The notes under the pieces: model-generated | What the model was told of the DNA's origin: nothing | The model's database searches: none | What the model saw: only the letters and a program-made list of their open reading frames with translations | Virus record (IMG/VR): IMGVR_UViG_3300014050_000050 | Location: 1 to 44,426 of that record | Source of the DNA: a virus | Reading direction: 5' to 3' (one strand) | Length of the DNA: 44,426 nt | Shown: positions 7,666-26,090 of the stretch, in pieces | Layout of the letters: every line of letters starts with the position of its first letter | Position numbering within the stretch: position 1 is the stretch's first letter | Made by a program: the position numbers and the translations under genes

Positions 7666-7689
7666 TCCGTACTGACGCGGGGGGAGGTG

Positions 7690-7878
7690 TCAGTAGTCGA
7701 ACACTTCGCTGATTACAGCGTGTGTCACATCTTCAAACTTGGTGGCTTCTGGGATGTTGCCGGCGCTCTCCTCAAATCGAGCAGCGAATATGTTTCGTGC
7801 CTCGGTGAGTGTATCCGCAGAGATTTCCACGCGGTACACATCACCTACCGCATATGTGAATCGGTATGTCGTAGTCAT
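7690..7878 (-). CDS. DpnD/PcfM-like small protein
   Basis: 62 residues, 'YRFTYAVGDVYRVEISADT' then 'LTEARNIFAARFEESAG': two beta strands and an Ala-rich helix, the pattern of DpnD/PcfM-type small domains. Similar patterns occur at 8479-8646 and 10201-10380, so this is probably one of three related proteins in the array. Function unknown. It has its own promoter, leader hairpin and terminator. Confidence 0.65.
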   Translation of the reverse strand: MTTTYRFTYAVGDVYRVEISADTLTEARNIFAARFEESAGNIPEATKFEDVTHAVISEVFDY

Positions 7879-7891: not shown

Positions 7892-7944
7892 CGCGGGATC
7901 TCCGCGCTACTTCGATTATGGCACTAGTCAGACACTCCGCGCAA
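7892..7944 (-). promoter_or_regulatory. Promoter plus leader hairpin for the gene at 7690
   Basis: TTGCGC (7939-7944), 18 bases, CATAAT (7915-7920), expected start near 7908, then hairpin CGCGG-AGATC-CCGCG (7892-7906), then TTAGGGG before ATG. Confidence 0.75.
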
Positions 7945-8011
7945 CACCCTCCACCGCATATGGCGAGTGCCGGCTCTAGGATCCGCACGTCGGCCGCCGG
8001 ACTCGGGACAA

Positions 8012-8042
8012 AGAAAATCCCCCACTCTCTCGGGCGGGGGAC
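8012..8042 (-). terminator. Terminator after the gene at 8054
   Basis: Stem TCCCCC/GGGGGA with TTTT on the minus strand, directly after the stop. Confidence 0.8.
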
Positions 8043-8053
8043 TCTCTCCTCTC

Positions 8054-8314
8054 TCAGTCTCGGTACCGGTCTGGGTCAGGCTCGTCATTGACTTCACCCT
8101 CGTACTCACCTTGAGTGCCACAAGCAGGGCAAGTGAAACTTCCCCACTCGCTCGAACCGTATGACGACAGTGCCACCTCAAGGTCAGTATCGACCTCAAA
8201 CTCGGCGCAGTCTTCGTTCTGGCAAGCGACTGTACGCTCGTCATCCCACTCGCGGTCTGCGCCGGCGATAGCGTACTCGTTGCCGGTCACTCCGTCTGGA
8301 TAGTATCCGCTCAT
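8054..8314 (-). CDS. Zinc-ribbon-like protein
   Basis: 86 residues from ATG at 8314 with GGGGAGGTGAG upstream. Four cysteines in two knuckles (CQNEDC and CPACG) separated by about 28 residues form a likely zinc ribbon. The acidic C-terminus ends EPDPDRYRD. It sits alone in a transcription unit with promoter, 5' hairpin and terminator. No function can be assigned. Confidence 0.75.
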   Translation of the reverse strand: MSGYYPDGVTGNEYAIAGADREWDDERTVACQNEDCAEFEVDTDLEVALSSYGSSEWGSFTCPACGTQGEYEGEVNDEPDPDRYRD

Positions 8315-8332
8315 TTTGCTCACCTCCCCTCC

Positions 8333-8384
8333 GCCGGCAACTTGCCGACACTTCGATACTAGTGCTGTCGGTACATCCGCACAA
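8333..8384 (-). promoter_or_regulatory. Promoter plus leader hairpin for the gene at 8054
   Basis: TTGTGC (8379-8384), 17 bases, TAGTAT (8356-8361), then six bases to a hairpin GTCGGC-AAGTT-GCCGGC (8333-8349) whose first base is the expected first transcribed base. Confidence 0.8.
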
Positions 8385-8438
8385 CACCTGTCACCGCACA
8401 CCGCATCTGCAGCGGATCCAGAGAGACTTCACCGCACG

Positions 8439-8470
8439 AGAAAACCCCCCGGTCTCCCGAGGGGCTTCTC
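8439..8470 (-). terminator. Terminator after the gene at 8479
   Basis: Symmetrical stem-loop on the frame GAGAA...CCCC...GGGG...TTTTCTC, with TTTTCTC on the minus strand. This frame recurs in most terminators of the array. Confidence 0.8.
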
Positions 8471-8478
8471 TAGTGTTC

Positions 8479-8646
8479 CTAATCCTTTGCGAGGGCTATG
8501 CTGGCTCTCGTTGTCTCAAGGTGCTTGGACGTCGGTTTGGTGTGCTCTTGGTTGCGATACGCCTCCCACGCTTCCTCCCGTGTCCTGCCCTGCACTCGAA
8601 CCGTACTCACTGTCGTTTCAGTCCAAGATATTTCGTAGGTGTTCAT
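8479..8646 (-). CDS. DpnD/PcfM-like small protein
   Basis: 55 residues from ATG at 8646 (MNTYEISWTETTVSTVRVQG then RTREEAWEAYRNQEH). The strand-strand-helix pattern with 'V.V.GRTREEAWEAY' matches the proteins at 7690-7878 and 10201-10380. The longer open frame upstream covers the promoter and leader hairpin and is rejected. Confidence 0.6.
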   Translation of the reverse strand: MNTYEISWTETTVSTVRVQGRTREEAWEAYRNQEHTKPTSKHLETTRASIALAKD

Positions 8647-8665
8647 CTGCCACCCGCTCCTCCCT

Positions 8666-8717
8666 GCCGGCCACCTGCCGACCACTTCAGAATACAGATT
8701 CACCGCACACCGCACAA
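8666..8717 (-). promoter_or_regulatory. Promoter plus leader hairpin for the gene at 8479
   Basis: TTGTGC (8712-8717), 17 bases, TATTCT (8689-8694), six bases, hairpin GTCGGC/GCCGGC (8666-8682), then GGGAGGAG. Confidence 0.75.
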
Positions 8718-8775
8718 CACTACGCCGGCGCAGCGTAAAAATTTGTCCAGAGATCTTGACGGCCGGCGCACCGCA

Positions 8776-8808
8776 CGAAAAATCCCCCACCTCTCGGCAG
8801 GGGATTCT
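8776..8808 (-). terminator. Terminator after the gene at 8826
   Basis: G/C-rich stem AATCCCC/GGGGGATT, with TTTTT on the minus strand. Confidence 0.8.
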
Positions 8809-8825
8809 TCACCGCATTCGGATTA

Positions 8826-8984
8826 TTACGCGCGAATCCACGCGTCTAGGTGCTGGTACACCTCGTACTGCGCGAGAATCGAATCGTCACGCAGGTCTCC
8901 GTCGAATCCGTTGGCTGCGACCTCCGCGTCGTACTCGGCCACACGGACGGCGATGTACGCTGCGATTTCTTCTGCTGTCTTCAC
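8826..8984 (-). CDS. Small helical hypothetical protein
   Basis: 52 residues starting at GTG 8984, eight bases after GGGAGGTGAG. The sequence MKTAEEIAAYIAVRVAEYDA then EVAANGFDGDLRDD is mostly helical. It shares a general pattern ('AEEIAAYI...NGFD') with the next unit (9284-9526, 'AVELAERIIRNGFDEA'). No known family. Confidence 0.65.
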   Translation of the reverse strand: MKTAEEIAAYIAVRVAEYDAEVAANGFDGDLRDDSILAQYEVYQHLDAWIRA

Positions 8985-9001
8985 GTTCTCACCTCCCCTC
9001 C

Positions 9002-9054
9002 GTCGGGCGACTCCCGACACCTAAACGATACCGTCGGCGAGCGCGTCGGCGCAA
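9002..9054 (-). promoter_or_regulatory. Promoter plus leader hairpin for the gene at 8826
   Basis: TTGCGC (9049-9054), 18 bases, TATCGT (9025-9030), six bases, hairpin GTCGGG-AGTCG-CCCGAC (9002-9018) beginning at the expected first transcribed base, then GGGGAGGTGAG. Confidence 0.85.
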
Positions 9055-9059
9055 CACCG

Positions 9060-9237
9060 TAAAAGCGGCGCAGAATCGATTCTGACGCGGTTTCATCCGT
9101 AGGGGGTACTTCTATACCCACCAGGGCTCACCGTTGATTCTGCGTCCAGCGACAGCGCGAACCGCTGCAGCAGACTCACCGTTAGCGGTCTGACAGATTC
9201 CTCAGCGGTGGTCTGACAGATTCCCTCGCCGGCGCAT
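9060..9237. other. Gene-free stretch with a palindrome and short repeats
   Basis: No credible gene. It holds a perfect 14-base palindrome CAGAATCGATTCTG (9071-9084), an inverted repeat GGGTA-cttcta-TACCC (9104-9119), and two copies of GGTCTGACAGATTCC near 9189-9227. A related 'CGACAGATTCCTCG' recurs near 9610. May be an operator or protein-binding region, or the remnant of a lost unit. Confidence 0.5.
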
Positions 9238-9274
9238 GGAAAAACCCCCCACCCTGACGGGTGAGGGGCTTCTC
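9238..9274 (-). terminator. Terminator after the gene at 9284
   Basis: Stem CCCCTCACCC/GGGTGGGG with GTCA loop on the minus strand, then TTTTTC. Confidence 0.85.
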
Positions 9275-9283
9275 GGTTAGACG

Positions 9284-9526
9284 CTAGTCGATTCCCTCGA
9301 CGGCGAAGAGATACGTCTTGCCGTCGATGGTCTGACGAAACGCCGCACGTACCGCGCGAGCGCGGTCCTGGACTTCGACGGATACACCCTCGAATCCAAG
9401 CACGACCTCGCCGAGTGCGTCGTATGTCGCGCTCGACGGACTGTTGAACATGGCGGCCTCATCGAAGCCGTTGCGAATAATTCGCTCGGCTAGTTCGACA
9501 GCCAACTTCTGAAAGTCAGTAGCCAT
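9284..9526 (-). CDS. Small hypothetical protein
   Basis: 80 residues from ATG at 9526 after GGGAGGTGATTCAA. The N-terminal helix 'LAVELAERIIRNGFDEAAMF' leads into a short alpha/beta region ending 'RQTIDGKTYLFAVEGID'. The large open frame upstream (to 9889) runs through the promoter, leader and neighbouring gene and is not used. No family recognised. Confidence 0.7.
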   Translation of the reverse strand: MATDFQKLAVELAERIIRNGFDEAAMFNSPSSATYDALGEVVLGFEGVSVEVQDRARAVRAAFRQTIDGKTYLFAVEGID

Positions 9527-9544
9527 TTGAATCACCTCCCTCCC

Positions 9545-9596
9545 GCCGGAACCCCCCGACCACTCGATTCTAGTCGACCTCGTTCTTGCCGCGCAA
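9545..9596 (-). promoter_or_regulatory. Promoter plus leader hairpin for the gene at 9284
   Basis: TTGCGC (9591-9596), 18 bases, TAGAAT (9567-9572), six bases, hairpin GTCGG-GGGGTT-CCGGC (9545-9560, one G-T pair), then GGGAGGGAGGTGA. The leader exposes GGGGGG. Confidence 0.85.
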
Positions 9597-9633
9597 CACC
9601 CTCGACGGCCGACAGATTCCTCGCTGCCGGCAT

Positions 9634-9670
9634 GAGAAAACCCCCCGCCCGTGGGGGCAGGGGGCTTCTC
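9634..9670 (-). terminator. Terminator after the gene at 9679
   Basis: GC-rich stem on the array's common frame (GAGAAGCCCC...GGGGGGTTTTCTC), T-run on the minus strand. Confidence 0.85.
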
Positions 9671-9678
9671 GGTGGCGG

Positions 9679-10029
9679 TTACTCGCCCTCGTTGTACCGG
9701 CCGCACGTCTCGCACTCGTCGCGCTCGTCGTACTTGTGCGAATCCGACTCGACACACGCGGGTGTCAGGTTGATTTCGATGTCCGCGCCGGTCTCGAACG
9801 GTTCCTGCGTGACGTAGTACACGAAACGGTCTACCCAATGCAGTCCGTTCGATATGTAGTCGAACCCGCTGGAGTCGCACCGCGTCCACACACGCGCTGG
9901 GTCTGTACCCTGCACGACCTCGTAGTCCACGCCGTACGTCTCGAACGGCCGCACGTTGCCGTCCTCATCCGTTACCGGCTTGTACTTCTCGACCCACTCG
10001 TCGTAGGTCAATTCGATGAGATTAGCCAT
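9679..10029 (-). CDS. Hypothetical acidic protein with C-terminal CxxC
   Basis: 116 residues from ATG at 10029 (GGGGGTGAGGACA upstream). 'LTYDEWVEKYKPVTDEDGNVRPFETYG' resembles short phage proteins of unknown role. The C-terminus carries 'ACVESDSHKYDERDECETCGRYNEGE', with three Cys and a His that could bind a metal. Own promoter, hairpin and terminator. Confidence 0.7.
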   Translation of the reverse strand: MANLIELTYDEWVEKYKPVTDEDGNVRPFETYGVDYEVVQGTDPARVWTRCDSSGFDYISNGLHWVDRFVYYVTQEPFETGADIEINLTPACVESDSHKYDERDECETCGRYNEGE

Positions 10030-10047
10030 TGTCCTCACCCCCTCCCT

Positions 10048-10099
10048 GCCGGCGGTTGCCGACCCCCCAAGACTATCGGGCACTACTTCGCCGGCGCAA
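10048..10099 (-). promoter_or_regulatory. Promoter plus leader hairpin for the gene at 9679
   Basis: TTGCGC (10094-10099), 18 bases, TAGTCT (10070-10075), a six-base spacer containing the G-run GGGGGG, hairpin GTCGGC-AACC-GCCGGC (10048-10063). Confidence 0.85.
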
Positions 10100-10158
10100 C
10101 ACCCTCGACGGCCGGCACCGCAGCAAAAAATGAGGCCAGCACGATCGTGACGTGGCAC

Positions 10159-10192
10159 GAGAAAACCCCGCCGGCGAACCGACGGGGCTTCC
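10159..10192 (-). terminator. Terminator after the gene at 10201
   Basis: GCCCCGTC...GGCGGGGTTTTC on the minus strand, a G/C stem followed by TTTT. Confidence 0.75.
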
Positions 10193-10200
10193 TGCTGCGC

Positions 10201-10380
10201 TTACGCGTGGCCGACGTGCGTCACGATGTGCGTCACCTCGATTTCCTCCGCACCGTCCAACTCGGCGTCCTCCTCATGATAGCGGCGCTCGAAGATTTCC
10301 TGCGCCTCGGCCGGCGTCTCGGCTTCGATTTCGACCTCGTACTGCGTACCGATTAGGTACTCAACTTTCCACTTTGGCAT
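10201..10380 (-). CDS. DpnD/PcfM-like small protein
   Basis: 59 residues (MPKWKVEYLIGTQYEVEIEA then ETPAEAQEIFERRYHEEDAEL). The clearest member of the strand-strand-helix trio: 'V.YLIGTQYEVEIEAETPAEAQEIFERRY'. His-containing C-terminus (THIVTHVGHA). Start is ATG at 10380 after GGGGGTGAGGGA. Confidence 0.7.
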   Translation of the reverse strand: MPKWKVEYLIGTQYEVEIEAETPAEAQEIFERRYHEEDAELDGAEEIEVTHIVTHVGHA

Positions 10381-10397
10381 TCCCTCACCCCCTCTCC

Positions 10398-10450
10398 GTC
10401 GGGAACCCCCCGACTCCCCCAGCGTACCGCGCACCGTTGCGGCCTCGCAA
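10398..10450 (-). promoter_or_regulatory. Promoter plus leader hairpin for the gene at 10201
   Basis: TTGCGA (10445-10450), 18 bases, TACGCT (10421-10426), six bases, hairpin GTCGGG-GGGTT-CCCGAC (10398-10414) with a G-rich loop. A CCTGC-type run of four repeats of CCCTG lies just upstream (10455-10480). Confidence 0.8.
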
Positions 10451-10542
10451 CACCCTGCCCTGCCCTGCCCTGCCCTGCTGCGAGCGCGAACCGCGCACCG
10501 TTGCGAGTCCAGTGATCGTGCAGCGACTCACGCCCTAGGCGC

Positions 10543-10577
10543 GAAAAGACCCCCCACCGTTAGGTGAGGGGTCTCTC
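10543..10577 (-). terminator. Terminator after the gene at 10586
   Basis: GACCCCTCACC...GGTGGGGGGTC, then TTTTC on the minus strand. Confidence 0.85.
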
Positions 10578-10585
10578 CGGTCACG

Positions 10586-10804
10586 CTACTTTCGTAGCGC
10601 GATACCGTTCGCTTCCGCGACATCCTCCAGCCACGCCAACGCCCGTTGACGCGCCCGAAGTCCTCGCCCGAAGTCCTCGCCGGTCAAACGCTTGAGAGCG
10701 TGTAGCGACGACTCGCGGGTGAGTTGCAGACGGTGTCCGGTTTCCCAAGTCTTGATCTCTAACTTGAGTCCCTGGACGAGAACCATAAGTTGCAGTCCGT
10801 TCAT
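10586..10804 (-). CDS. Small helical hypothetical protein
   Basis: 72 residues from ATG at 10804 (GGAGGTGATTCAG upstream). Two predicted helices, 'LQLMVLVQGLKLEIKTW' and 'SLHALKRLTGEDFGRGLRAR' continuing to 'QRALAWLEDVAEANG', Arg-rich in the middle. No known family. Confidence 0.7.
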   Translation of the reverse strand: MNGLQLMVLVQGLKLEIKTWETGHRLQLTRESSLHALKRLTGEDFGRGLRARQRALAWLEDVAEANGIALRK

Positions 10805-10822
10805 CTGAATCACCTCCTCCCC

Positions 10823-10875
10823 ACCGGGAACCCCCCGATACTCCAATGCTACTCGCCGTGCCGTTGATCGCGCAA
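10823..10875 (-). promoter_or_regulatory. Promoter plus leader hairpin for the gene at 10586
   Basis: TTGCGC (10870-10875), 18 bases, TAGCAT (10846-10851), six bases, hairpin ATCGGG-GGGTT-CCCGGT (10823-10839). Compared with the neighbour at 10398 the closing pair changed from G-C to A-T, keeping pairing. Confidence 0.85.
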
Positions 10876-10888
10876 CACCCTACGCGCA

Positions 10889-10917
10889 GAAAAGCCCCGA
10901 CTCTCGCCGGGGCTTCC
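10889..10917 (-). terminator. Terminator after the gene at 10935
   Basis: GAAGCCCCGGCGAGAGTCGG then GGCTTTTC on the minus strand. Confidence 0.8.
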
Positions 10918-10934
10918 CTGTCTGCTGCGAACCG

Positions 10935-11219
10935 CTAAAGCGTGTCGATCCGCGTGTAGGACGTGACTTTCTGAAGTTCCTTGAACAACTCCGGCATCTC
11001 TTTTTCGAGACGCTCGGTGTCAATGCCGGTACGCTTCATCTCCTTGATAGCAACCACAGGGATGTTGCGAACCGTGCCGGTGTCACCGGCCGACAAGTGC
11101 TGCAAGATCAAGTCCTTTAGCACCGCCTCGCGCTTCTCAAGAGCCTTACGCTCGTCCCGAATGGTCGCCAATTCGTGAACCGCTTTGGCAACTTCTCCCT
11201 TGATCGGAATGCTAGGCAT
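10935..11219 (-). CDS. Hypothetical protein related to the one at 15417
   Basis: 94 residues. An N-terminal coiled-coil-like helix (AKAVHELATIRDERKALEKR continuing EAVLKDLILQHL) is followed by 'SAGDTGTVRNIPVVAIKEMKRTGIDTERLEKEMPELFKEL'. The pattern 'G..G.V.G.PV......R..ID...L....PE.Y' also occurs in the protein at 15417-15728, and resembles a C-terminal segment I recall from phage YqaJ-type recombination nucleases. A DNA-metabolism role is only a suggestion. Confidence 0.7.
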   Translation of the reverse strand: MPSIPIKGEVAKAVHELATIRDERKALEKREAVLKDLILQHLSAGDTGTVRNIPVVAIKEMKRTGIDTERLEKEMPELFKELQKVTSYTRIDTL

Positions 11220-11332
11220 TTCGACCCCTAACTCCGGATTACTCCGGCTTGTCCGGCATTCCCTGCCGGTGGGGTAGCGACCCGAATCGGTGCTACAAGA
11301 ACGACACTACGGCATATCGACAGACCGCGCAA
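11220..11332 (-). promoter_or_regulatory. Promoter and long structured leader for the gene at 10935
   Basis: TTGCGC (11327-11332), 17 bases, TAGTGT (11304-11309), then a leader of about 77 bases. It contains CCGGCA...TGCCGG (11253-11269) and CCGG-AGTAAT-CCGG (11234-11247), with three CCGGA-type repeats. Much longer than the other leaders in the array, so extra control is possible. Confidence 0.65.
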
Positions 11333-11354
11333 CACCCTACGCCCACAAAAGAGT

Positions 11355-11420
11355 GCCGCCCGATGTGGGAGACAAGGGGGGGGGGGAGAGTCTCGACCAC
11401 ACCGGGCGGCGTTGGGGGGC
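11355..11420 (-). ncRNA. Candidate small RNA with C11 loop
   Basis: On the minus strand TAAAAT (11427-11432) is followed six bases later by GCCCCCC and a long hairpin: GCCGCCCG/CGGGCGGC (11403-11410 with 11355-11362), GTGTGG/CCACAT inside it, and GAGAC/GTCTC inside that. The loop carries eleven Cs (11376-11386), and ACTCTTTTG follows. The -35 is poor (TTTGCA at 19 bases). No ORF with a ribosome site. It could instead be an unusual terminator, or be read on the plus strand with a G-rich loop. Confidence 0.45.
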
Positions 11421-11432
11421 TTGATCATTTTA

Positions 11433-11609
11433 GACACACTCACCGCGTGAGTGCAAATCGGATTTCGATCCGGTGGCCAGCGCGTGATCTTCCAGGCGCA
11501 AAGTTCGCACCGTTGGGCGCGTTCTAAGACCCTGGAACGCTCGCAGCGTGGCGACACGCTCACCGTTGGCTCGTGAGCGCGTTAGCGCGTCACCGTCGGG
11601 CGTAGGGGC
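11433..11609. other. Gene-free stretch with several hairpins
   Basis: No credible gene. It contains CACTCAC-CGC-GTGAGTG (11437-11453), CGGAT-TTCG-ATCCG (near 11459-11472), CGCTCAC...GTGAGCG and AGCGTG/CACGCT stems. Repeats of the type CACCGTTGG recur here and elsewhere in the array. May be decayed transcription units or a structured non-coding region. Confidence 0.4.
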
Positions 11610-11645
11610 ACGAGAAAACCCCCGGCTCTCACCGGGGGCTCTCGT
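11610..11645 (-). terminator. Terminator after the gene at 11662
   Basis: Extended symmetrical stem ACGAGAG...CCCCCGG...CCGGGGG, then TTTTCTCGT on the minus strand. Confidence 0.85.
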
Positions 11646-11661
11646 CGTTGTCGGGCGGTGG

Positions 11662-12054
11662 CTAGACCTCGCAGTCGTGACCGTACGCCCACTCACCGGC
11701 GTCGTCGGTGTTCCCGATCGTGTCAAAGACTCGCCCGCACTCACCGCAGACCTTGAACCCGACCGACAGGCGACGCGCAGCCTCGCCGGCCTCCTCGCCC
11801 GTTGCGTACTGCCCAAACTCGCCCACCGTCTGGAACGTCACCGAATCGCCCATGATCTGGAACCGGCGCACCGTGTAGCGACGCGCACCGCCCCAGACCA
11901 CGCCCGAATCGTCCTGCTCGCTCGTGACGAACAACGCGCCCCGGTAGACCGTCTGGTGAACGCGAGACGAGAAGAATCGCATAGTGGACTCGTCGAAGTA
12001 TGGACTCCCCAACTCGCGAGCGATGTCTATGAGTTCCCTAGTCGTGTTGATCAT
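11662..12054 (-). CDS. Hypothetical protein with C-terminal zinc-knuckle-like motif
   Basis: 130 residues. 'FSSRVHQTVYRGALFVTSEQDDSG' and 'RRYTVRRFQIMGDSVTFQTVGEF' form a predicted beta-rich core. The C-terminus 'VCGECGRVFDTIGNTD' plus 'GHDCEV' gives three Cys and a His. Its ATG at 12054 follows GGTAGGGGAA. The adjacent plus-strand reading frame of over 300 codons is its antisense shadow. Confidence 0.75.
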   Translation of the reverse strand: MINTTRELIDIARELGSPYFDESTMRFFSSRVHQTVYRGALFVTSEQDDSGVVWGGARRYTVRRFQIMGDSVTFQTVGEFGQYATGEEAGEAARRLSVGFKVCGECGRVFDTIGNTDDAGEWAYGHDCEV

Positions 12055-12069
12055 TTCCCCTACCTATCC

Positions 12070-12123
12070 GCGCGGCATTTCCGCGCTAGGTCGATTATGC
12101 CACCGACTCACCGGCCGGCGCAA
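12070..12123 (-). promoter_or_regulatory. Promoter plus leader hairpin for the gene at 11662
   Basis: TTGCGC (12118-12123), 18 bases, CATAAT (12094-12099), expected start 12087, hairpin GCGCGG/CCGCGC (12070-12086), then GGATAGGTAGGGGAA before ATG. Confidence 0.8.
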
Positions 12124-12182
12124 CACCCCACACCGCGAGCGCGACACCGCGATCCGGCGACCAACGGCAGCACTTCTGGACG

Positions 12183-12220
12183 AAAAAAATTGCCTGGAAG
12201 ATCAAGCGACCGTTCCAGGC
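12183..12220 (-). terminator. Second terminator downstream of the gene at 12272
   Basis: Perfect stem GCCTGGAA/TTCCAGGC (12192-12220) followed on the minus strand by AATTTTTTT. A strong back-up behind the terminator at 12225-12257. Confidence 0.8.
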
Positions 12221-12224
12221 GCAC

Positions 12225-12257
12225 GAAAAACCCCACGCGGTTAGGCGTGGGGTTCTC
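12225..12257 (-). terminator. First terminator after the gene at 12272
   Basis: GAACCCCACGCC...GCGTGGGGTTTTTC on the minus strand. Confidence 0.85.
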
Positions 12258-12271
12258 GCTGATCGTAGCGG

Positions 12272-12529
12272 TTATGACTTGCAGAATAGACAGTTGCACT
12301 CACCGTCGAGTGAGCACTCGCTCACCGGGCATTCTCCGGCGTAGTGGTGGCAACGTCCCCCACCGTCGGTGGCGGTGTACAGTCCCCGGCAGTCGCTCGC
12401 CATGTGACCGTCGAACGACTGTGCGTACTCGCCGGGTGCTCGACCGTCGCCGGCTAGCGTCCACATACCGCCACACGAGAGACACCGGACGTAGTTACCC
12501 TCGCCGGTACCGATAAATGTGTGTTGCAT
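12272..12529 (-). CDS. Cysteine-rich zinc-binding-like protein
   Basis: 85 residues with ten cysteines: CLSCGG near residue 16, then 'DCRGLY', 'CHHYAGECPVSECSLDGECN' and a final CLFCKS. Two metal sites are likely. ATG at 12529 follows AGGGGGAGATC and lies nine bases past the stop of 12539-12721, so these two share one transcript, an exception to the single-gene units around them. Confidence 0.75.
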   Translation of the reverse strand: MQHTFIGTGEGNYVRCLSCGGMWTLAGDGRAPGEYAQSFDGHMASDCRGLYTATDGGGRCHHYAGECPVSECSLDGECNCLFCKS

Positions 12530-12538
12530 GATCTCCCC

Positions 12539-12721
12539 CTAGTTCTGACCGTAGCCGGATTGCTTCATCGAGAGGATGTAGTCCTCCATTGCCTCACGAG
12601 TGCCGCAGTCCGAGCAAATCTCAGTCTCGTTGTCACGCCGTGAGAGTGCGCCCATGTACGCGCCCGGTGTCTCGTTGTTTGGAATGTATCCCCCGCAGTT
12701 GGGGCAAATTGGTTTTTTCAC
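12539..12721 (-). CDS. Zinc-ribbon protein
   Basis: 60 residues starting GTG 12721 (AGGAAAGGACGCAAA upstream). CPNCGG at residues 6-11 and CSDCGT near 36-41 flank 'IPNNETPGAYMGALSRRDN', then 'REAMEDYILSM'. I recall this pattern from small proteins of many actinobacteriophages; their function is not known. First gene of a two-gene transcript. Confidence 0.8.
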   Translation of the reverse strand: MKKPICPNCGGYIPNNETPGAYMGALSRRDNETEICSDCGTREAMEDYILSMKQSGYGQN

Positions 12722-12740
12722 TTTGCGTCCTTTCCTGTCC

Positions 12741-12794
12741 GGTCGCACTCCGCGACCTAGTACCAACGATACGCCGGTGCCGGCACAAACACAA
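12741..12794 (-). promoter_or_regulatory. Promoter plus leader hairpin for the genes at 12272-12721
   Basis: TTGTGT (12789-12794), 17 bases, TATCGT (12766-12771), then hairpin GGTCGC-GGAGT-GCGACC (12741-12757) starting about two bases past the expected start. Confidence 0.8.
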
Positions 12795-12832
12795 CACCGC
12801 CGAGATCGTGTCTCGACGGTGCTGATTTTTTT
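12795..12832 (+). terminator. Plus-strand terminator opposing array transcription
   Basis: Eleven-pair stem (CACCGCCGAGA with TCTCGACGGTG, one G-T pair) followed on the plus strand by CTGATTTTTTT. The genes here are on the minus strand, and read that way the hairpin follows the gene at 12843 but lacks a good T-run. It may stop antisense transcription, or act in both directions. Confidence 0.65.
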
Positions 12833-12842
12833 GCGGCCAGCG

Positions 12843-13076
12843 TCAGAAGATGCGCGACGCGATCAATTCCTCGCCACCGACTCGCACGAACGGTACGGCG
12901 TTGTTCGCGTAGACCATGGCGTAGACGCGGTACCAACGAGCGCGGCCGTCCTGCCCCACCAGGCGCAGTGATCGGTTCGTCGCTACGCTCGCACCGTATC
13001 CGGTTACGCTGCGGTTCACCGGCGCGGTAGCGTCAATCCGCGTGTCTAGCACGTCCGACTCTTCGAGATACTTCAC
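12843..13076 (-). CDS. Hypothetical protein, actinophage-type RWYRVY family
   Basis: 77 residues, start GTG 13076 after GGATAGGGGAAG. 'YLEESDVLDTRIDATAPVNR', 'GYGASVATNRSLRL' and 'RARWYRVYAMVYANNAVPFV' match a small protein pattern I recall from many actinobacteriophages (function unknown). Its ribosome site lies in the stretch GGATAGGGG that is fully complementary to a loop of the small RNA at 14993-15098. Confidence 0.75.
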   Translation of the reverse strand: MKYLEESDVLDTRIDATAPVNRSVTGYGASVATNRSLRLVGQDGRARWYRVYAMVYANNAVPFVRVGGEELIASRIF

Positions 13077-13093
13077 GGTTACTTCCCCTATCC

Positions 13094-13151
13094 GGTCGCA
13101 CTTTGCGACCTAGTGAATACGATACTAACGCGGTCGCGCTGATCGTGGCAA
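13094..13151 (-). promoter_or_regulatory. Promoter plus leader hairpin for the gene at 12843
   Basis: TTGCCA (13146-13151), 18 bases, TAGTAT (13122-13127), hairpin GGTCGC-AAAGT-GCGACC (13094-13110). The stem is the same as at 12741, the loop differs. Confidence 0.75.
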
Positions 13152-13174
13152 GACCCTCGGCGTGTCTCGGGCAA

Positions 13175-13216
13175 CGAGAAAACCCCTCACCGTTGGTGCT
13201 GGTGAGGGGTCTCTCG
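13175..13216 (-). terminator. Terminator after the gene at 13229
   Basis: GACCCCTCACCAGC...GGTGAGGGGTTTTCTC on the minus strand. Confidence 0.85.
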
Positions 13217-13228
13217 GTCTCGCCGGCT

Positions 13229-13561
13229 TTAGACGTCGCTCGGGTCGATCTTCCATCCGCTGAGGATGCGAACGTCCACCGGGTCGAGTCCTAGCGTCTC
13301 GCCGTTCTCACCGGTCAGTCCAGTAATGACAACGGGACCGAGAAGCGTCACGCCGAACATATCGTGCGCCCACACGTTGAGCGTGAAGTCGCTGCGAAAC
13401 AACCCCTCTTCGTTGGCGTACAGGTCGAACAAGTTCGAAACCCGTACCGGTTCGATCAGTCCGTCCACGGCGGTCTGAAGCACCTGTAGCGACCCTTCGG
13501 GTGCGTCCAAGTCCAACAGCGTGGGCGTACCCTCGGTGTCAATCCGTAATGCGTTGCGCAT
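13229..13561 (-). CDS. DUF3846-like protein
   Basis: 110 residues. 'RNALRIDTEGTPTLLDLDAPEGS', 'LQVLQTAVDGLIEPVRVSN', 'DLYANEEGLFRSDFTLNVWA' and 'LGPVVITGLTGENGETLGL' follow the order of DUF3846 proteins, common in phages and mobile elements. A GTG three bases earlier (13564) is possible; ATG at 13561 is better spaced from GGGGAAG. Confidence 0.82.
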   Translation of the reverse strand: MRNALRIDTEGTPTLLDLDAPEGSLQVLQTAVDGLIEPVRVSNLFDLYANEEGLFRSDFTLNVWAHDMFGVTLLGPVVITGLTGENGETLGLDPVDVRILSGWKIDPSDV

Positions 13562-13581
13562 CACTTCCCCTAACTACTAGT

Positions 13582-13634
13582 GCCGGCGGTGTTGCCGACA
13601 GTACGAGTCTAAGACTCGCCGGCACTCCGCGCAA
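13582..13634 (-). promoter_or_regulatory. Promoter plus leader hairpin for the gene at 13229
   Basis: TTGCGC (13629-13634), 17 bases, TAGACT (13606-13611), six bases, hairpin GTCGGC-AACACC-GCCGGC (13582-13599). Confidence 0.85.
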
Positions 13635-13650
13635 TACCCTAGCCGGCAAA

Positions 13651-13680
13651 GAAAAACCCCGGCGGTCTGCCGGGGTCTCT
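13651..13680 (-). terminator. Terminator after the gene at 13694
   Basis: GACCCCGGCAGACCGCCGGG then GTTTTTC on the minus strand. Confidence 0.85.
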
Positions 13681-13693
13681 CCGTGAGTGCCGC

Positions 13694-13990
13694 TTAGCCG
13701 GGCATACAGTCCGGGCATAGCAGTACGGTCTGCGAGCCGTCATCGAGACAGTAGGGCATGGTCATGTCGTGCTGGTAGTCACAACCGAAGCACATCGACT
13801 CCACGCCTTGAACGGTGAAGTATTCCGCGACCTTGGGGTCGGTGTGCTTTTCGTCGATCTCGTCGAGCGACTCGAAGTAGTAGAACACTCGTTCGTCGAT
13901 ATCGTCGACATCCGAGGGCTCGCCGATACCGACGAGGGCAGTCTCGGGTTCGGCGTCGCCGTTCACGAGAATTATTGCGTTGGTGAACAT
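13694..13990 (-). CDS. Acidic protein with C-terminal zinc-finger-like motif
   Basis: 98 residues from ATG at 13990. The N-terminal two thirds are acidic (EPSDVDDIDERVFYYFESLD). The C-terminus 'CFGCDYQHDMTMPYCLDD' plus 'LLCPDCMPG' supplies five Cys and a His in a metal-finger arrangement. Function unknown. Confidence 0.72.
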   Translation of the reverse strand: MFTNAIILVNGDAEPETALVGIGEPSDVDDIDERVFYYFESLDEIDEKHTDPKVAEYFTVQGVESMCFGCDYQHDMTMPYCLDDGSQTVLLCPDCMPG

Positions 13991-14018
13991 TCGTTCCCCT
14001 TTCGTTGTTGGTAATCCC

Positions 14019-14047
14019 AGAATATGGCAACGAGGGTGCGAGCGCAA
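14019..14047 (-). promoter_or_regulatory. Promoter for the gene at 13694
   Basis: TTGCGC (14042-14047), 17 bases, TATTCT (14019-14024). Unlike its neighbours I see no strong hairpin in the leader; AAAGGGGAACG precedes ATG. Confidence 0.75.
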
Positions 14048-14080
14048 TGCCCACACCCTCGTGTCTCGCTGGACGAAAAA

Positions 14081-14425
14081 TTACGTCCAGATCGCGGCGT
14101 GTGCCTGTCGGGTCAGATGTTCCAGAACACGGCCGGCGTGGGTCAGATACTGAAGTTGCTGCTCTTCATCGACCTGTGCGAGTGCTTCCTGGATCCCCAC
14201 GTACTCCGGGGCGGCCACGTCTGCACCGAATGGCGAGGGCGTGAAGTTCCACTCTTCCGGCACAGCGTCGAAGCGTGTCAGGTGATCGGCAATAGCAAAC
14301 TGCCACGTGGTCGCGAGTCCCCAGACGTCGCACCCTTTGTAGTATTCGTCGCGGACGTAGTCGAGGATCGGGTTGTCGTTCCCCGGTCGGTTCTGACGTC
14401 GCGCGAGTCCGCTAGTGAGTTCCAT
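14081..14425 (-). CDS. Hypothetical protein
   Basis: 114 residues from ATG at 14425 (AGGGAGAGAC upstream). 'NDNPILDYVRDEYYKGCDVW', 'LATTWQFAIADHL' and 'YVGIQEALAQVDEEQQLQYL' are mainly helical. The pattern resembles conserved actinophage hypotheticals. A stem CTGGACG/CGTCCAG encloses the stop codon (about 14071-14092). Confidence 0.72.
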   Translation of the reverse strand: MELTSGLARRQNRPGNDNPILDYVRDEYYKGCDVWGLATTWQFAIADHLTRFDAVPEEWNFTPSPFGADVAAPEYVGIQEALAQVDEEQQLQYLTHAGRVLEHLTRQAHAAIWT

Positions 14426-14438
14426 GTCTCTCCCTAAT

Positions 14439-14493
14439 GCGAGGGACGTTCCCTCGCGAGTCCTAGTGTGCCACCGTTGCGTCTCTTGCGCAA
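14439..14493 (-). promoter_or_regulatory. Promoter plus leader hairpin for the gene at 14081
   Basis: TTGCGC (14488-14493), 17 bases, CACACT (14465-14470, a poor -10), then perfect eight-base stem GCGAGGGA-ACG-TCCCTCGC (14439-14457). Confidence 0.7.
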
Positions 14494-14508
14494 TAGTCTC
14501 TCGCCGGC

Positions 14509-14545
14509 AATGAGAAACCCTCACCGTTTCGGGTGAGGGTTCTCG
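14509..14545 (-). terminator. Terminator after the gene at 14564
   Basis: GAGAACCCTCACCC...GGTGAGGGTTTCTC on the minus strand. Confidence 0.85.
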
Positions 14546-14563
14546 GTGTCTCGCCGGCAGTCG

Positions 14564-14914
14564 TTAGAGCCAATCGGTGCGTTCTTGCTCGGTCGCCTCG
14601 CGGATCGTGAACGACGCGCCGACAGGTTCGTCGTGCGAGTAGCGCATGGCGGTCGCCGTCTTCTCGCCGGGCGTGAACGTGAACACAAGTCGGTAACTTC
14701 CGTCGAGTTGGAGTGCCGCGATCAGGTTGTTCCGGTCGGTGACGATGAAGCCGGTACTGCGAGTCCAATTCATTCCGGTGCCGGTGACGTGGAAGTATTC
14801 GATTCCCATATCGTCAATGTGCGCCTGGATTCCGAGTGCGGCCGAGTCCCACTCCCAATCGTTCTCGCAGTCGGTGTCGAGTTCTATCGTGTATGGATCT
14901 AGTTGTTTCGTCAT
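14564..14914 (-). CDS. Hypothetical protein
   Basis: 116 residues. 'YTIELDTDCENDWEWDSAALGI', 'YFHVTGTGMNWTRSTGFIV' and 'GSYRLVFTFTPGEKTATAMRYSHDEP' look like a compact beta-sheet domain. No name can be given. ATG at 14914 follows AAGGGGAAGAA. Confidence 0.75.
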   Translation of the reverse strand: MTKQLDPYTIELDTDCENDWEWDSAALGIQAHIDDMGIEYFHVTGTGMNWTRSTGFIVTDRNNLIAALQLDGSYRLVFTFTPGEKTATAMRYSHDEPVGASFTIREATEQERTDWL

Positions 14915-14952
14915 TTCTTCCCCTTGGGTCGAATCGGATATTTGCTACTGCG

Positions 14953-14981
14953 AGTCTACGCGTGACAGTTCGGCTGCGCAA
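14953..14981 (-). promoter_or_regulatory. Promoter for the gene at 14564
   Basis: TTGCGC (14976-14981), 17 bases, TAGACT (14953-14958). No strong leader hairpin seen. Confidence 0.8.
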
Positions 14982-14992
14982 CGGCCGGCACA

Positions 14993-15098
14993 CAGAAAGA
15001 TCCCCGAGTGCCGGGGGGAACACTCGGGGATCTGCGCGAGAGAGGATAGGGGGGAGAAACACTCTCGCGGTGTCGCAGTTCGTCAATGAAGCGGCGAC
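14993..15098 (-). ncRNA. Small RNA with two C-rich hairpin loops
   Basis: Between a consensus promoter (15105-15134) and an intrinsic terminator there is no open frame with a ribosome site. The predicted RNA of about 105 bases begins at 15098 and folds into three hairpins. They are GTCGC/GCGAC at the 5' end (15072-15098), CGCGAGAG/CTCTCGCG (15035-15069) with CCCCCC in its loop, and a 12-base stem GATCCCCGAGTG/CACTCGGGGATC (14999-15032) with loop TTCCCCCCGG, then TTTCTGTG. Loop bases CCCCTATCC are fully complementary to GGATAGGGG at the ribosome site of the gene at 12843. Loop bases CCCCCCGG can pair with TCGGGGGG in the leaders at 9545, 10398 and 10823. By analogy with C-rich Gram-positive sRNAs it may repress translation. 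The function is inferred. Confidence 0.72.
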
Positions 15099-15104
15099 AG
15101 GTCG

Positions 15105-15134
15105 ATTCTACTCGCGATCCGTTTGGTCGCGCAA
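15105..15134 (-). promoter_or_regulatory. Promoter of the small RNA
   Basis: TTGCGC (15129-15134), 18 bases, TAGAAT (15105-15110), the best match to the array consensus. It lies inside the end of the upstream gene, whose TAG stop is the first half of TAGAAT. Confidence 0.85.
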
Positions 15135-16333: not shown

Positions 16334-16714
16334 TTACTCGCCGAGTTCCGGCGCGGTGACAGGGACGCGAGTGTGAACCGAAGTTCCCCACGACAGGTCG
16401 TGTCCGAGAGCGTCCACCTCGACCTCGACGGTCGTGCCGGAACGGTCGGTGTTCTCCCAATCGCGAATGCGAACGCGTCCGGTGAGAATCACGCGGTCGC
16501 CTTTGCTCACCGAGGTTGCCGTGTTCTTGGCGAGGTCGCGGAATGCCGAGACGGTGTACCAATTCGTGTCTCCGTCAATCCAACGCTGGGCTACCCGGTC
16601 ATAGCGGCGTTGGCTACAAGCGAGACGGAACGAGGTAATTGCGAGACCGTCCGAGGTGGTGATGTGGCGCGGAGTCGTGGCTACGAGTCCGGTCAGAGTA
16701 ATCGTGTCAGTCAT
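16334..16714 (-). CDS. ssb: Single-stranded DNA-binding protein
   Basis: 126 residues, an OB-fold SSB that coats ssDNA in replication and recombination. Matching segments: 'ITLTGLVATTPRHITTSDGL' then 'AITSFRLACSQRRYDRVAQRW', 'DTNWYTVSAFRDLAKNTATS' and 'KGDRVILTGRVRIRDWEN'. It lacks a long acidic C-terminal tail; the protein ends PVTAPELGE. ATG at 16714 is chosen over 16756 because the promoter lies between. Its promoter is bracketed by an 11-base inverted repeat. Confidence 0.92.
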   Translation of the reverse strand: MTDTITLTGLVATTPRHITTSDGLAITSFRLACSQRRYDRVAQRWIDGDTNWYTVSAFRDLAKNTATSVSKGDRVILTGRVRIRDWENTDRSGTTVEVEVDALGHDLSWGTSVHTRVPVTAPELGE

Positions 16715-16798: not shown

Positions 16799-17578
16799 TT
16801 ATCCGGCGAGGCGATACCAGAGATCGTCTGCCGAGGTTGCGAGCGTTGCCTTGCCGTCCCTGATCAGTTGGTGGCAACCTGCCGAAGAAGCCGAGGTAAT
16901 TGGACCAGGCACAGCGAATACGCCCACTCCAGCCTCGAATGCGGCGTCTGCCACACGGAGTGCGCCAGAACGCCACCCAGCCTCGGGGATCACGACTGCC
17001 GAAGCGGCGTATCCCAAATACTCGCTACGCGACATCATGCGCCACTTCGTCGGTGAGAATCCCATAGGCAGGGCAGACACAATCGCACCGTTCTCGATCA
17101 CTCGGTTGAGAAGCGCGTCGTGTCCACTCGGGTACAGGCGGTCAATGCCACCAGCGAGCCAGACAATCGGCTCGCCGTTCTCGGCAAGTTGTGCGCGGAG
17201 TGCCATGCCGTCGATTCCGTACGCGCCACCATTCACAACGGTACGTCCCTTGTGCAGGAGTCCGGTAGCAAACTCCATAGTGATGTGTTCCCCGTAGCCT
17301 GTCGAGGCTCGTGCGCCGGTCAGTACGACTGACTGCGGCAGTCCCCTCACGACCTCGGGGTTGCCTCGGTAGAACAACGCCTCGGGTGCTTTCTTCCCGA
17401 GGTCGTTGAGTCCAGCAGGGTACAGTTCGTCGGTCTTGGTGATGATTCCCGCGCCGACACGAGACAATGCCTCGATCTGGTTGGTGACATCGGTCTTGGT
17501 CACGAGGTATCCGTCTGCCATGTGAGAAGCCAAAGACTTCTCGACTGCCTCGATTTGTTCTTCTGTGTAACTCGTCAT
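16799..17578 (-). CDS. dprA: DprA/Smf-like DNA processing protein
   Basis: 259 residues. The Rossmann-fold core of DprA: 'YPAGLNDLGKKAPEALFYRG', 'QSVVLTGARASTGYGEHITM', 'GRTVVNGGAYGIDGMALRAQ', 'AGGIDRLYPSGHDALLNRVI' and 'VFAVPGPITSASSAGCHQLI'. DprA binds ssDNA and loads RecA. Here it follows its own promoter and lies upstream of ssb in the same direction. A short N-terminal segment replaces the usual SAM-like domain. ATG at 17578 is chosen because the upstream segment covers leader sequence. Confidence 0.88.
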   Translation of the reverse strand: MTSYTEEQIEAVEKSLASHMADGYLVTKTDVTNQIEALSRVGAGIITKTDELYPAGLNDLGKKAPEALFYRGNPEVVRGLPQSVVLTGARASTGYGEHITMEFATGLLHKGRTVVNGGAYGIDGMALRAQLAENGEPIVWLAGGIDRLYPSGHDALLNRVIENGAIVSALPMGFSPTKWRMMSRSEYLGYAASAVVIPEAGWRSGALRVADAAFEAGVGVFAVPGPITSASSAGCHQLIRDGKATLATSADDLWYRLAG

Positions 17579-21802: not shown

Positions 21803-22852
21803 CTAGATTCGGGCTGGAAGGATTGCCTCGCCAAAAGTGCGAGACAGCACATCAGAGACAACCGGGCGGTCAATCTCGGGCGCGGAAGCGAGCAGGTTGG
21901 CAATCGCCCACTTCGTGCCAAAGACCTTTTCGAGGTCGCGGAACGCGAGCAGTTCTCGGAACTGCGGAGACCACGAGACCTCGTTGCTCGACTGCTTCTT
22001 GGCGAGGTTCTGCGAGGCGGTCACGATCAGAGCCGGAACTCCCAACTTCTTGGCCAGCGACCAATCGGTAGTCATTTCGACGTGAATGGTGAAGCGCGAG
22101 AGAAGAGCCTCGGAGAGTCGAACTCCGGGTGCGTTCGGGTTGGTCGCGGCTACGACGTAGAAGCCGTCCTTTGCCTTGACTGTCCCGCGCTCGGGGTTCG
22201 CCGTGACTGTGTATTCACGCCGTCCGTCCATGAGTCCGTAGACGATTGACAGAACTTTCGGATCAATGAGACCCACCTCGTCAATGAGAAGAGGCTTGCC
22301 CTGTTCAGCCGCTTTCAGAAGCGCACCGTCCTCCCAGAGGAATCCACCAGAGGGAGTCTGGACATACCCACCAACGAGGTCAGAAACCTCGGTGTCACCA
22401 GAGCCGAGAATGGTGAACAAGTCCTCACCAAAAGCGGCTTCGACGAGCGCAGTCTTGCCACAGCCGGGTGCGCCGTAGAGCAGAACAAACTGCTGGTTCT
22501 CACGCGCGGTGCGGATTACTTCCACATCGTCGTGCTGTCCCCACTTGCGAGTGAAGTAGTCCTGACCATTCGGACGAGCGTACTTCTTTTCGCCGGAGAG
22601 GATTGCAACCTCGGGGTCAGCCTCGGGAGTCTTGTCCTCGTCGGAAGCCGCGCCCTGTGCGCCACGCCCACGAACGAGGCTGGCCTTGTTCGAGAACTCG
22701 CCGGCATATGCCGAGAGATCAGCGTGAGTGAACTGCCCAATGACTGCGGAGAGCAGAGTCGGCAACTTCGGGTGGAGTGCCTCGATAGAGGCGAAGTTAT
22801 CCATAGTCGAACGGAGAGTGTTCTCCATGTCGGTTGAGATAGTTGTTGTCAT
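21803..22852 (-). CDS. MoxR-type AAA+ ATPase
   Basis: 349 residues. Walker A GAPGCGKT (127-134), Walker B 'PLLIDEVGL', sensor 1 'VVAATNPNAPG' and arginine-finger region 'LSEALLSRFTI'. The closest general likeness is MoxR/CobS. It lies directly upstream of the VWA/HExxH gene and 19 bases downstream of an uncharacterised gene, which suggests a three-part module. Start is ATG at 22852 (AAGGAAACGACGAAA upstream), not the in-frame codon at 22927. Confidence 0.9.
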   Translation of the reverse strand: MTTTISTDMENTLRSTMDNFASIEALHPKLPTLLSAVIGQFTHADLSAYAGEFSNKASLVRGRGAQGAASDEDKTPEADPEVAILSGEKKYARPNGQDYFTRKWGQHDDVEVIRTARENQQFVLLYGAPGCGKTALVEAAFGEDLFTILGSGDTEVSDLVGGYVQTPSGGFLWEDGALLKAAEQGKPLLIDEVGLIDPKVLSIVYGLMDGRREYTVTANPERGTVKAKDGFYVVAATNPNAPGVRLSEALLSRFTIHVEMTTDWSLAKKLGVPALIVTASQNLAKKQSSNEVSWSPQFRELLAFRDLEKVFGTKWAIANLLASAPEIDRPVVSDVLSRTFGEAILPARI

Positions 22853-22871
22853 TTTCGTCGTTTCCTTTTCT

Positions 22872-23366
22872 TTAGACAGATGAAGCGGTAAATGCGGAGG
22901 GGGTAGAAGCAGGAAGTGCAGGGACAAGCGTTTCCCAGAGTTCTTCGGAGAACCCTGCTTCGGTACGAGCGCGGAGAACGCGACGGATCAATGCGTTCGG
23001 AGTCTCCTTGCTCGCAATAGCGTTGAGATCGTCCTGTGACATTTCTACCACCAGCGGAGTCTGGTACAGAGCCCAGCCACCAGCGTAGAAACCAGAGAAG
23101 AACGACGAGAGTTCGTTGGCAATCGGAAGCGAACGAGTCGCGCCCTCTTCCATTGTCGGTGCGAGTCCGAGGTCGCTCGGGTTGTCAGAAGTGTAGAACT
23201 TCCAAGGGCGGCGTGGGTGATTCTCGCTAATTTGGCGATTGAGAACATGAGCCGGCTCAAACTTTCCAGATACCGGGTTGTTCGTGGGCGGAGTGAGAAT
23301 CACCTGTGCGGTGTGGGTCTCACGACGGAACTCCAAGTACAGAGACTTGGCTACTGACTTTGACAT
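22872..23366 (-). CDS. Uncharacterised protein in the MoxR-VWA operon
   Basis: 164 residues from ATG at 23366 (AAAGGACTGTT upstream). 'SVAKSLYLEFRRETHTAQVI', 'ENHPRRPWKFYTSDNPSDLG' and 'FFSGFYAGGWALYQTPLVVE' suggest a compact alpha/beta domain. The same promoter drives it and probably the ATPase. It may be a substrate or adaptor for the ATPase; nothing in the sequence proves that. Confidence 0.78.
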   Translation of the reverse strand: MSKSVAKSLYLEFRRETHTAQVILTPPTNNPVSGKFEPAHVLNRQISENHPRRPWKFYTSDNPSDLGLAPTMEEGATRSLPIANELSSFFSGFYAGGWALYQTPLVVEMSQDDLNAIASKETPNALIRRVLRARTEAGFSEELWETLVPALPASTPSAFTASSV

Positions 23367-25245: not shown

Positions 25246-26090
25246 TATTCTCCAACCTCGAAAAAGTTACCGGTCTGATCTGCGAGCATGCGCAACGTCA
25301 TAACGTCGGGCGTCCCATCTGGGTTGATCTGTCCGTTAAATCTTTGAAATGCAGAAAGCGCTCGCCGAGTTTTCAAATTAAAGACTCCTCTATCAGCATT
25401 CTGCAAACGTACACCGGGGTGGTTCGCGAGCGCAAGTTGTACAAGCTCAACGGACTTTTGGATTTTGGGTCCGGCTTCTCGAGCTCGAGCCGAGCTAATG
25501 CATTTTGTTAAATGAGAAGTTCGGATGACGGGCACGCCGGCGGGTCCGGATCTAGATCTGGATCCAGGCAAACTTCTCATATTTAATGTGAGAAGTTGGG
25601 ATCCATCGGGCACCCTTCGTGCACCTCCGTGCACCCGTATGGGTCGAGCAAAACATAAGACATCACTTTCGTGGCGGACTCGTTCGTAAACCCCGTTGTG
25701 TTCTTGGGGTCCTTTTGGCAAGCCTGTATTGGTCTGACCTTCAATCGATTTGAAAGTTCGATGAGACTTCCAGGATCCAACATCCGAAATAATCCCAACA
25801 TGCGGGGACTCGAGTTGATGGGTTATTCCAGGCGGATACGCAAAAAATACGATGTCACCTGGTTTTGGAGTTTTAAATATAAGACCACTTTTAATATAAA
25901 AAGATAGAGCTGATGCTGAGTACTGGTGATTTGGTACTCGGTATTTTAAATCTTTAAATATTTCATTAATAAATCCGCCATCCCAGTTTAAACCGGGAGG
26001 ACCAAAATTTGATCGGTTATCGGACAGCGCTGTGTAACCGATGTACTCGGTCGCTTTCTCAACCGCGGGGTGGGTTCGCTTCTTGCGCAT
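25245..26090 (-). CDS. CHAP-like plus peptidoglycan-binding protein, catalytic Cys missing
   Basis: 281 residues. Residues 10-150 follow a CHAP-type hydrolase: 'YIGYTALSDNRSNFGPPGLN' then 'WDGGFINEIFKDL', with 'TPKPGDIVFFAY' and 'SPHVGIISDVG' supplying the usual His. At the catalytic Trp-Cys position the sequence reads Trp-Asp-Gly-Gly-Phe. Residues 165-195 (GSRSRSGPAG...) are encoded by a DNA repeat shared with two intergenic sites. The C-terminus has a PG-binding domain (VELVQLALANHPGVRL, 'DRGVFNLKTRRALSAFQRFN'). A wall-binding or structural role may replace hydrolysis. TAGACT lies seven bases before ATG. Confidence 0.78.
   Translation of the reverse strand: MRKKRTHPAVEKATEYIGYTALSDNRSNFGPPGLNWDGGFINEIFKDLKYRVPNHQYSASALSFYIKSGLIFKTPKPGDIVFFAYPPGITHQLESPHVGIISDVGSWKSHRTFKSIEGQTNTGLPKGPQEHNGVYERVRHESDVLCFARPIRVHGGARRVPDGSQLLTLNMRSLPGSRSRSGPAGVPVIRTSHLTKCISSARAREAGPKIQKSVELVQLALANHPGVRLQNADRGVFNLKTRRALSAFQRFNGQINPDGTPDVMTLRMLADQTGNFFEVGE
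25513..25597. repeat. Composite repeat, copy 2, inside a coding region
   Basis: TGAGAAGTT (25513-25521), GGATCTAGATCTGGATCC (25548-25565), and an inverted pair AACTTCTCA (25571-25579)/TGAGAAGTT (25589-25597). It lies in the linker of the CHAP-like gene. Confidence 0.65.

Follow-up and report, generated by a model that had tools for sequence, protein, structure and literature searches.

The 6C RNA (RF01066) is among the few small RNAs that are widely conserved in actinobacteria, and its role is still debated. The B11/6C RNA of Mycobacterium marinum is composed of three stem-loops, two of which are C-rich, and the C-rich loop of its terminator pairs with G tracks adjoining ribosome sites, as supported by compensatory mutations (PMC12395582). 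In M. abscessus each C loop by itself is able to repress a 5′ UTR that contains six G (PMC10470900), and overexpression of 6C leads to growth inhibition in M. smegmatis (PMC8628891). 6C RNA has been described on chromosomes and plasmids (PMC6582537, PMC9569102), and the extra copies on mycobacterial chromosomes and plasmids are thought to be horizontally acquired (PMC9569102). A phage-borne 6C copy was not found in the accessible portions of the open-access literature on 6C RNA and phage, and this absence is provisional.

The window, by which we mean the whole 44.4-kb virus record analyzed here, is evidently a piece of a large actinobacteriophage. No DNA similarity to annotated phages was detected. 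Its portal protein shares 70% identity with the one from Actinomycetia phage DSL-LC01, a lake-water phage of 129 kb, and 65% with the one from Microbacterium phage Pumpernickel (186 kb); the CobT-like protein of the window is 47% identical to its DSL-LC01 counterpart. The phage probably infects freshwater actinobacteria. In the genome collection, the sole match to the CobT-like family is a contig within a MAG of Aquiluna, a freshwater member of the Microbacteriaceae. This contig (L116, CAJXOD010000018.1) encodes a CobT relative (42%) together with small genes; it is a hint, not proof, as to the host of the phage group.

Around the locus of interest, the minus strand of the window carries an array of short cassettes, in which a TTGCGC-17/18-TANNNT promoter is followed, often after a 5′ hairpin, by a ribosome site, a small gene and a terminator. 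The leaders of this array (window 7900–15000, minus strand) split into two classes. The leaders at 8.3–10.8 kb have a GTCGG-type 5′ hairpin and a GGGAGGUGA site, and those of the second class, mostly at 11.2–14.9 kb, have varied hairpins and an NTAGGGGRAG site. Nearby, a gene for a DprA-like protein (16802–17578, minus strand) adjoins the gene for a single-strand-binding protein (16337–16714) on the phage. The DprA-like protein and two other neighbors, the products of a 116-aa and a 103-aa gene, retrieved no relatives when used as bait.

Promoter and fold of the predicted small RNA

The predicted small RNA, designated sRNA1, is located on the minus strand at 14990–15098, with its start at about 15098 and its end at about 14990. 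Its promoter (15105–15134, minus strand) consists of TTGCGC at 15134–15129, an 18-nt spacer, and TAGAAT at 15110–15105, just as the initial annotation had described it. The TAG in the −10 box doubles as the stop codon of a 57-aa gene (15281–15108, minus strand), whose 3′ end contains the promoter and which has a 61% identical relative in a related phage record, G001. A promoter weight matrix was trained on ten other cassette promoters, with the sRNA1 promoter left out. When the window was scored at every position of either strand, the sRNA1 promoter came fifth, and the top 11 positions are this promoter plus the ten training promoters. It is indistinguishable from the ten cassette promoters. 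The 5′ hairpin (GTCGCC...GCGAC, 15071–15099, minus strand) starts with GTCG six bases past the −10 box and lies at the leader-hairpin position of several mRNA cassettes. Transcription would begin with cgacctGTCGCC, again in the pattern of several cassettes.

No plausible ORF lies downstream of this promoter, which bears out the original description of a promoter with no reading frame behind it. The long frame, 14814–15086, was rejected as coding; it starts with TTG, runs through the hairpins, and overlaps a better gene with an ATG at 14914. The unit looks like a cassette in which the gene has been replaced by two C-loop hairpins.

The stretch from 15098 to 14990 is predicted to fold into three hairpins with an energy of −49.2 kcal/mol, versus −31.2 ± 3.1 in shuffled sequences (z −5.8). 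Behind the 5′ hairpin follow hairpin 2 (15035–15069, minus strand), whose loop holds CCCCCC at 15054–15049, and hairpin 3 (14998–15033, minus strand), the terminator hairpin, with CCCCCC at 15018–15013 and then a T-rich tail that is short. This agrees with the RNA of about 105 bases that had been proposed, with a 5′ hairpin, two CCCCCC-loop hairpins and a terminator, the second C6 run being in the terminator itself. All five C6 runs found on the transcribed strand between 7 and 18 kb fall within sRNA1, a second unit named sRNA2, and a 3′-UTR hairpin of the gene at 7690–7878. The other array terminators have no C6 loops on the transcribed strand.

Comparison with 6C RNA

The 6C RNA is the sole Rfam match of the sRNA1 stretch. 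The match scores 36.0 bits and extends over 15069–14992 and model positions 1–75 of 75 (E 0.0023 for a search of 301 bases against all families, reporting up to E 10). The stretch has no Rfam match that would identify it as tRNA-like or as a riboswitch, and none to the RsaE or FsrA families at E up to 10. The kinship to the RsaE/RoxS and FsrA types first suggested is therefore given up in favor of the actinobacterial 6C RNA. LhrC of Listeria, ar7/ar14 of alphaproteobacteria, and FsrA resemble sRNA1 in their C- or CU-rich loops and terminator, yet they come from other phyla, and sRNA1 does not match them at E up to 10.

The score of 36.0 bits is below the Rfam gathering score of 47. The site was missed by Rfam at the gathering threshold, by an E-value search of 12 kb, and by a family search of the whole record. 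Since the search of the short stretch recovers sRNA1, these misses are attributed to the stricter filters of the larger searches. Among Microbacteriaceae, 94 of 150 genomes have an RF01066 match, with scores from 29.6 to 53.8 bits among the matches listed. Only 5 of the 94 genomes are above the cut-off of 47 and 89 are below, so that 6C RNAs of the host family usually score like the phage sRNA1. Annotation at the gathering score therefore probably loses most 6C RNAs of Microbacteriaceae.

A model built from 11 host 6C RNAs with the phage RNA excluded (R1) places sRNA1 first in the unfiltered window, with 28.6 bits, an E value of 6.5e-4, and model positions 1–76 of 76; the next-best match, at 17 bits, is a 3′-UTR element at 7696–7633. 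When host and phage sequences are aligned jointly, 16 of 24 pairs show at least one two-sided change. Many of these changes come from host sequences, and they support the structure of the family more than the phage member.

In architecture, sRNA1 has two successive stem-loops with six or more C in each loop, as 6C RNAs do, and like B11 it has three stem-loops, a 5′ hairpin being ahead and the last C loop lying in the terminator. It differs from 6C/B11 in being phage-borne, in its place within a small-gene array, and in its phage-type promoter. The loops differ as well. Host Microbacteriaceae 6C loops are UUCCCCCCAA, nearly always in both hairpins, whereas sRNA1 has UUCCCCCCGG in hairpin 3 and CUCCCCCCUA in hairpin 2. 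The hairpin-2 loop is long and lacks the host UUCCCCCCAA, and the hairpin-3 loop terminates in GG where the host loop terminates in AA. Formal assignment of sRNA1 to the 6C family is left open, since in direct tests it fell short of the curated score and lacked the canonical loop flanks. The extra mycobacterial 6C copies offer a parallel for a 6C-type RNA away from its usual genomic place, but they are bacterial and resemble regular 6C, and phage copies are unmentioned in the accessible part of that source (PMC9569102).

RF01066 reached 18 bits at most in DSL-LC01, Pumpernickel, Zooman, Sixama, GMA2 and others. Canonical UUCCCCCCA..UUCCCCCCA pairs gave 57 pattern matches in IMG/VR, of which four were flagged by script and none of the four has a 6C-like fold; the 13 IMG/VR matches to the exact loop TTCTCCCCCCTATCC include none within a 6C-like context.

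C-loop hairpins in the window and in related phages

The window contains two other C-rich elements. The second ORF-less unit, sRNA2 (11347–11456, minus strand; RNA at about 11420–11347), has a promoter TTGCAC-18-TAAAAT at 11456–11427, with weight-matrix rank 29, and a single long hairpin (fold z −5.7) whose loop contains a run of 11 C, with a T-rich end. A match of sRNA2 to RF01066 was not found. The 3′ UTR of the gene at 7690–7878 contains a C6-loop hairpin (7670–7695, minus strand) with a stem that starts at the stop codon. This hairpin, behind which comes an ordinary terminator, forms the weak, 17-bit match to R1.

Eighty related viral contigs were fetched by alignment of CobT, and in their records the top RF01066 scores are 46.0, 36.9 and 32.3 bits. 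Strong hairpins with five or more C in the loop were counted by strand in 55 dereplicated loci (1.09 Mb). The strand that is CobT-sense, i.e. transcribed, carries 29 of them versus one on the opposite strand, and three shuffles gave none on the sense strand. Raw C5 runs are near even by strand, 385 and 419. Loops of strong stems hold 21 of 385 C runs, versus 10 of 2340 for A, 2 of 419 for G and 2 of 744 for T. The outgroup actinophages Giles, phiC31 and GMA2 have few C-loop hairpins. Adjacent pairs of C-loop hairpins number six in 2.64 Mb (two of them, on contigs L019 and L020, are near-identical), as compared with 0, 1, 0 and 0 in shuffles.

Two of the relatives have units resembling sRNA1 in layout. 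G001 (IMGVR_UViG_3300037189_006220, about 25247–25361) has a TTGACA-17-TAGACT promoter and two abutting C5-loop hairpins, is ORF-less, and scores 32.3 bits; the pair scan skipped this unit because its stems touch. Contig L093 has an ORF-less unit of 29.5 bits with TTGACA-17-TAGCCT six bases ahead of the first hairpin. In G001 the relative of the 57-aa neighbor gene has no sRNA1-like RNA behind it. The loop conservation that the initial annotation had made a condition of its reading thus takes the form of a design recurring in related phages, without synteny of the locus itself. On the Aquiluna MAG contig an intergenic RNA of three hairpins is predicted, two of them with C5 loops; it has a strong terminator and lacks a clear promoter. 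Its weak matches are to ar7 and LhrC rather than to 6C.

Some of the C-rich elements upstream of CobT may be of another kind. An inverted repeat TGGGTGTC...GACACCCA with C runs between its arms lies just before the CobT gene in contigs L031 (9896), L040 and L060 and overlaps a TTGACA box; it may be an operator or promoter element. In L031 and L040 the C-loop hairpins share sequence with a promoter and may act as DNA.

Many C-loop hairpins of the clade are 3′-UTR or terminator hairpins, situated directly behind stop codons or ahead of the next promoter. In contigs L033 (46 bits) and L019 the C-loop pair is at or directly behind a stop codon. The 36.9-bit match (L098 1501–1576, corresponding to G001 22843–22918) consists of the 3′ end of a gene and its C6-loop terminator; its score comes partly from coding sequence, and therefore the score alone proves no stand-alone or trans-acting RNA. 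Such hairpins could be a mere style of terminator or 3′-end stabilizer in this clade, and sRNA1, which sits directly behind the 57-aa gene and whose hairpin 3 is itself a terminator, could be a processed 3′ UTR of that gene or a by-product with loops that are inert in trans. We regard this as rather unlikely, though it survives better than the other alternatives. sRNA1 has its own promoter and 5′ hairpin, promoter-driven ORF-less cases are present in G001 and L093, and the other terminators of the array do without C6 loops on the transcribed strand. In L019, moreover, the stems of the pair are unlike each other and yet the loops are almost identical, which speaks against loops of no consequence.

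Alternatively, sRNA1 may be a mimic or competitor of the host 6C RNA that acts mainly on host 6C targets, or competes for them, and so slows host growth. Many Microbacteriaceae have 6C RNAs, M. smegmatis is inhibited in growth when 6C is overexpressed (PMC8628891), and UUCCCCCC is common to the hairpin-3 loop of sRNA1 and host 6C. Phage hairpin loops are enriched in the host-6C form UU-C5+-A (7/29 versus 5/356, p 4e-6), with the caution that the closing pairs favor both T..A and A..T (10 and 5 within loops versus 34 and 51 elsewhere). The hairpin-2 loop of sRNA1 departs from the host loop, however, and RF01066 was not found in the one Aquiluna MAG searched, Aquiluna being a possible host. An RNA directed chiefly at host 6C targets is hence improbable.

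Predicted pairing with array leaders and proposed action

The loops of sRNA1 had been claimed to be complementary to particular leaders of the array. Such stretches exist. GGATAGGGG occurs once on the transcribed strand, at 13093; GGGGGAGA occurs at 12539 and at two places outside the array; and TCGGGGGG occurs at 10838, 10413 and 9559. The TCGGGGGG sites fall within sequence that the leaders can fold into 5′ hairpins of their own, and may therefore be occupied. The hairpin-2 loop pairs with array leaders at −17.1 kcal/mol versus −9.5 ± 0.9 kcal/mol with random stretches of the array. On the leaders it is no better than composition- or flank-shuffled loops (p 0.10–0.58), and the 9-nt loop match to a leader has p 0.16–0.19 against shuffled loops. 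In a swap test over 33 phages, with genes from a crude purpose-made caller, no consistent preference for the phage's own leaders was observed (p 0.04 when scored by mean energy, 0.77 when scored by the three best leaders). The leaders of the NTAGGGGRAG type favor the real hairpin-2 loop over flank-shuffled loops (p 0.013), in a class split that was made post hoc. Among the loops compared, the one clearly beating shuffles at GGGGAGGUG-type ribosome sites (8.3–10.8 kb) is the 3′-UTR loop at 7695, ACACCUCCCCCC.

C-rich loops prefer G-rich leaders in general. Of the earlier proposal of a C-rich small RNA acting on the array, the stand-alone RNA is well supported by its sequence and the C-loop mechanism fits 6C. 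The list of specific targets is not upheld, as the pairing is no better than that of shuffled loops, an outcome the initial annotation had itself named as refuting.

Rho prefers C-rich single strands. The loops keep their C-richness irrespective of the flanking bases, and the flanks do not make the pairing with the phage's own leaders specific; both features would suit an RNA that binds a protein of host or phage, for instance as a decoy for Rho or for some other C-binding protein. However, these are short C runs confined to tight hairpin loops, and known RNAs with B11 anatomy act through base pairing (PMC12395582), which makes a protein decoy very unlikely. That the feature acts as DNA, not as RNA, through a G-tract structure, a protein-binding palindrome or a replication site, is scarcely credible despite the plus-strand G6 tracts and long inverted repeats, given the strong strand asymmetry relative to transcription in relatives, the promoter upstream, and the terminator-like end.

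The explanation we prefer, with a probability of about 0.6, is that the phage encodes sRNA1 as a 6C-like small RNA whose role is to block ribosome sites rich in G. What the sequences show directly is the anatomy of the unit, its promoter match, the lack of a coding frame, the 6C-type architecture and the return of this design in related phages; its transcription, pairing, targets and effect are inferred. By analogy, sRNA1 most likely works like 6C; since it has the B11/6C anatomy, we infer a mechanism of C loop against G tract as the best account. The sRNA1 unit joins the usual promoter and 5′ hairpin of the array to two C-loop hairpins, of which the last serves as the terminator, and the array promoter would transcribe it along with its neighbors after infection. 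The C runs, above all the run in the terminator loop, would then pair with G tracts beside ribosome binding sites, as in the mycobacterial B11/6C model. By the same analogy, pairing would block translation and perhaps destabilize the mRNA. The G-rich array leaders of the phage itself are plausible targets, and host mRNAs are equally possible.

The presence of the same RNA design in several related phages suggests that a bacterial regulator was taken over, or invented anew, by these viruses. It is conceivable, if doubtful, that one clade of large actinobacteriophages from freshwater carries mimics of host 6C, both as stand-alone array RNAs and at mRNA 3′ ends, that redirect host and phage translation, the C-loop hairpin serving these phages as a common device for RNA regulation. 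That the sense strand of this phage clade has such an excess of C-loop hairpins is a new regularity. A phage version of 6C would account for ORF-less units in the small-gene arrays of actinophages, would be a case of a virus deploying a host-type antisense regulator, and would offer a handle on what 6C RNA does during infection.
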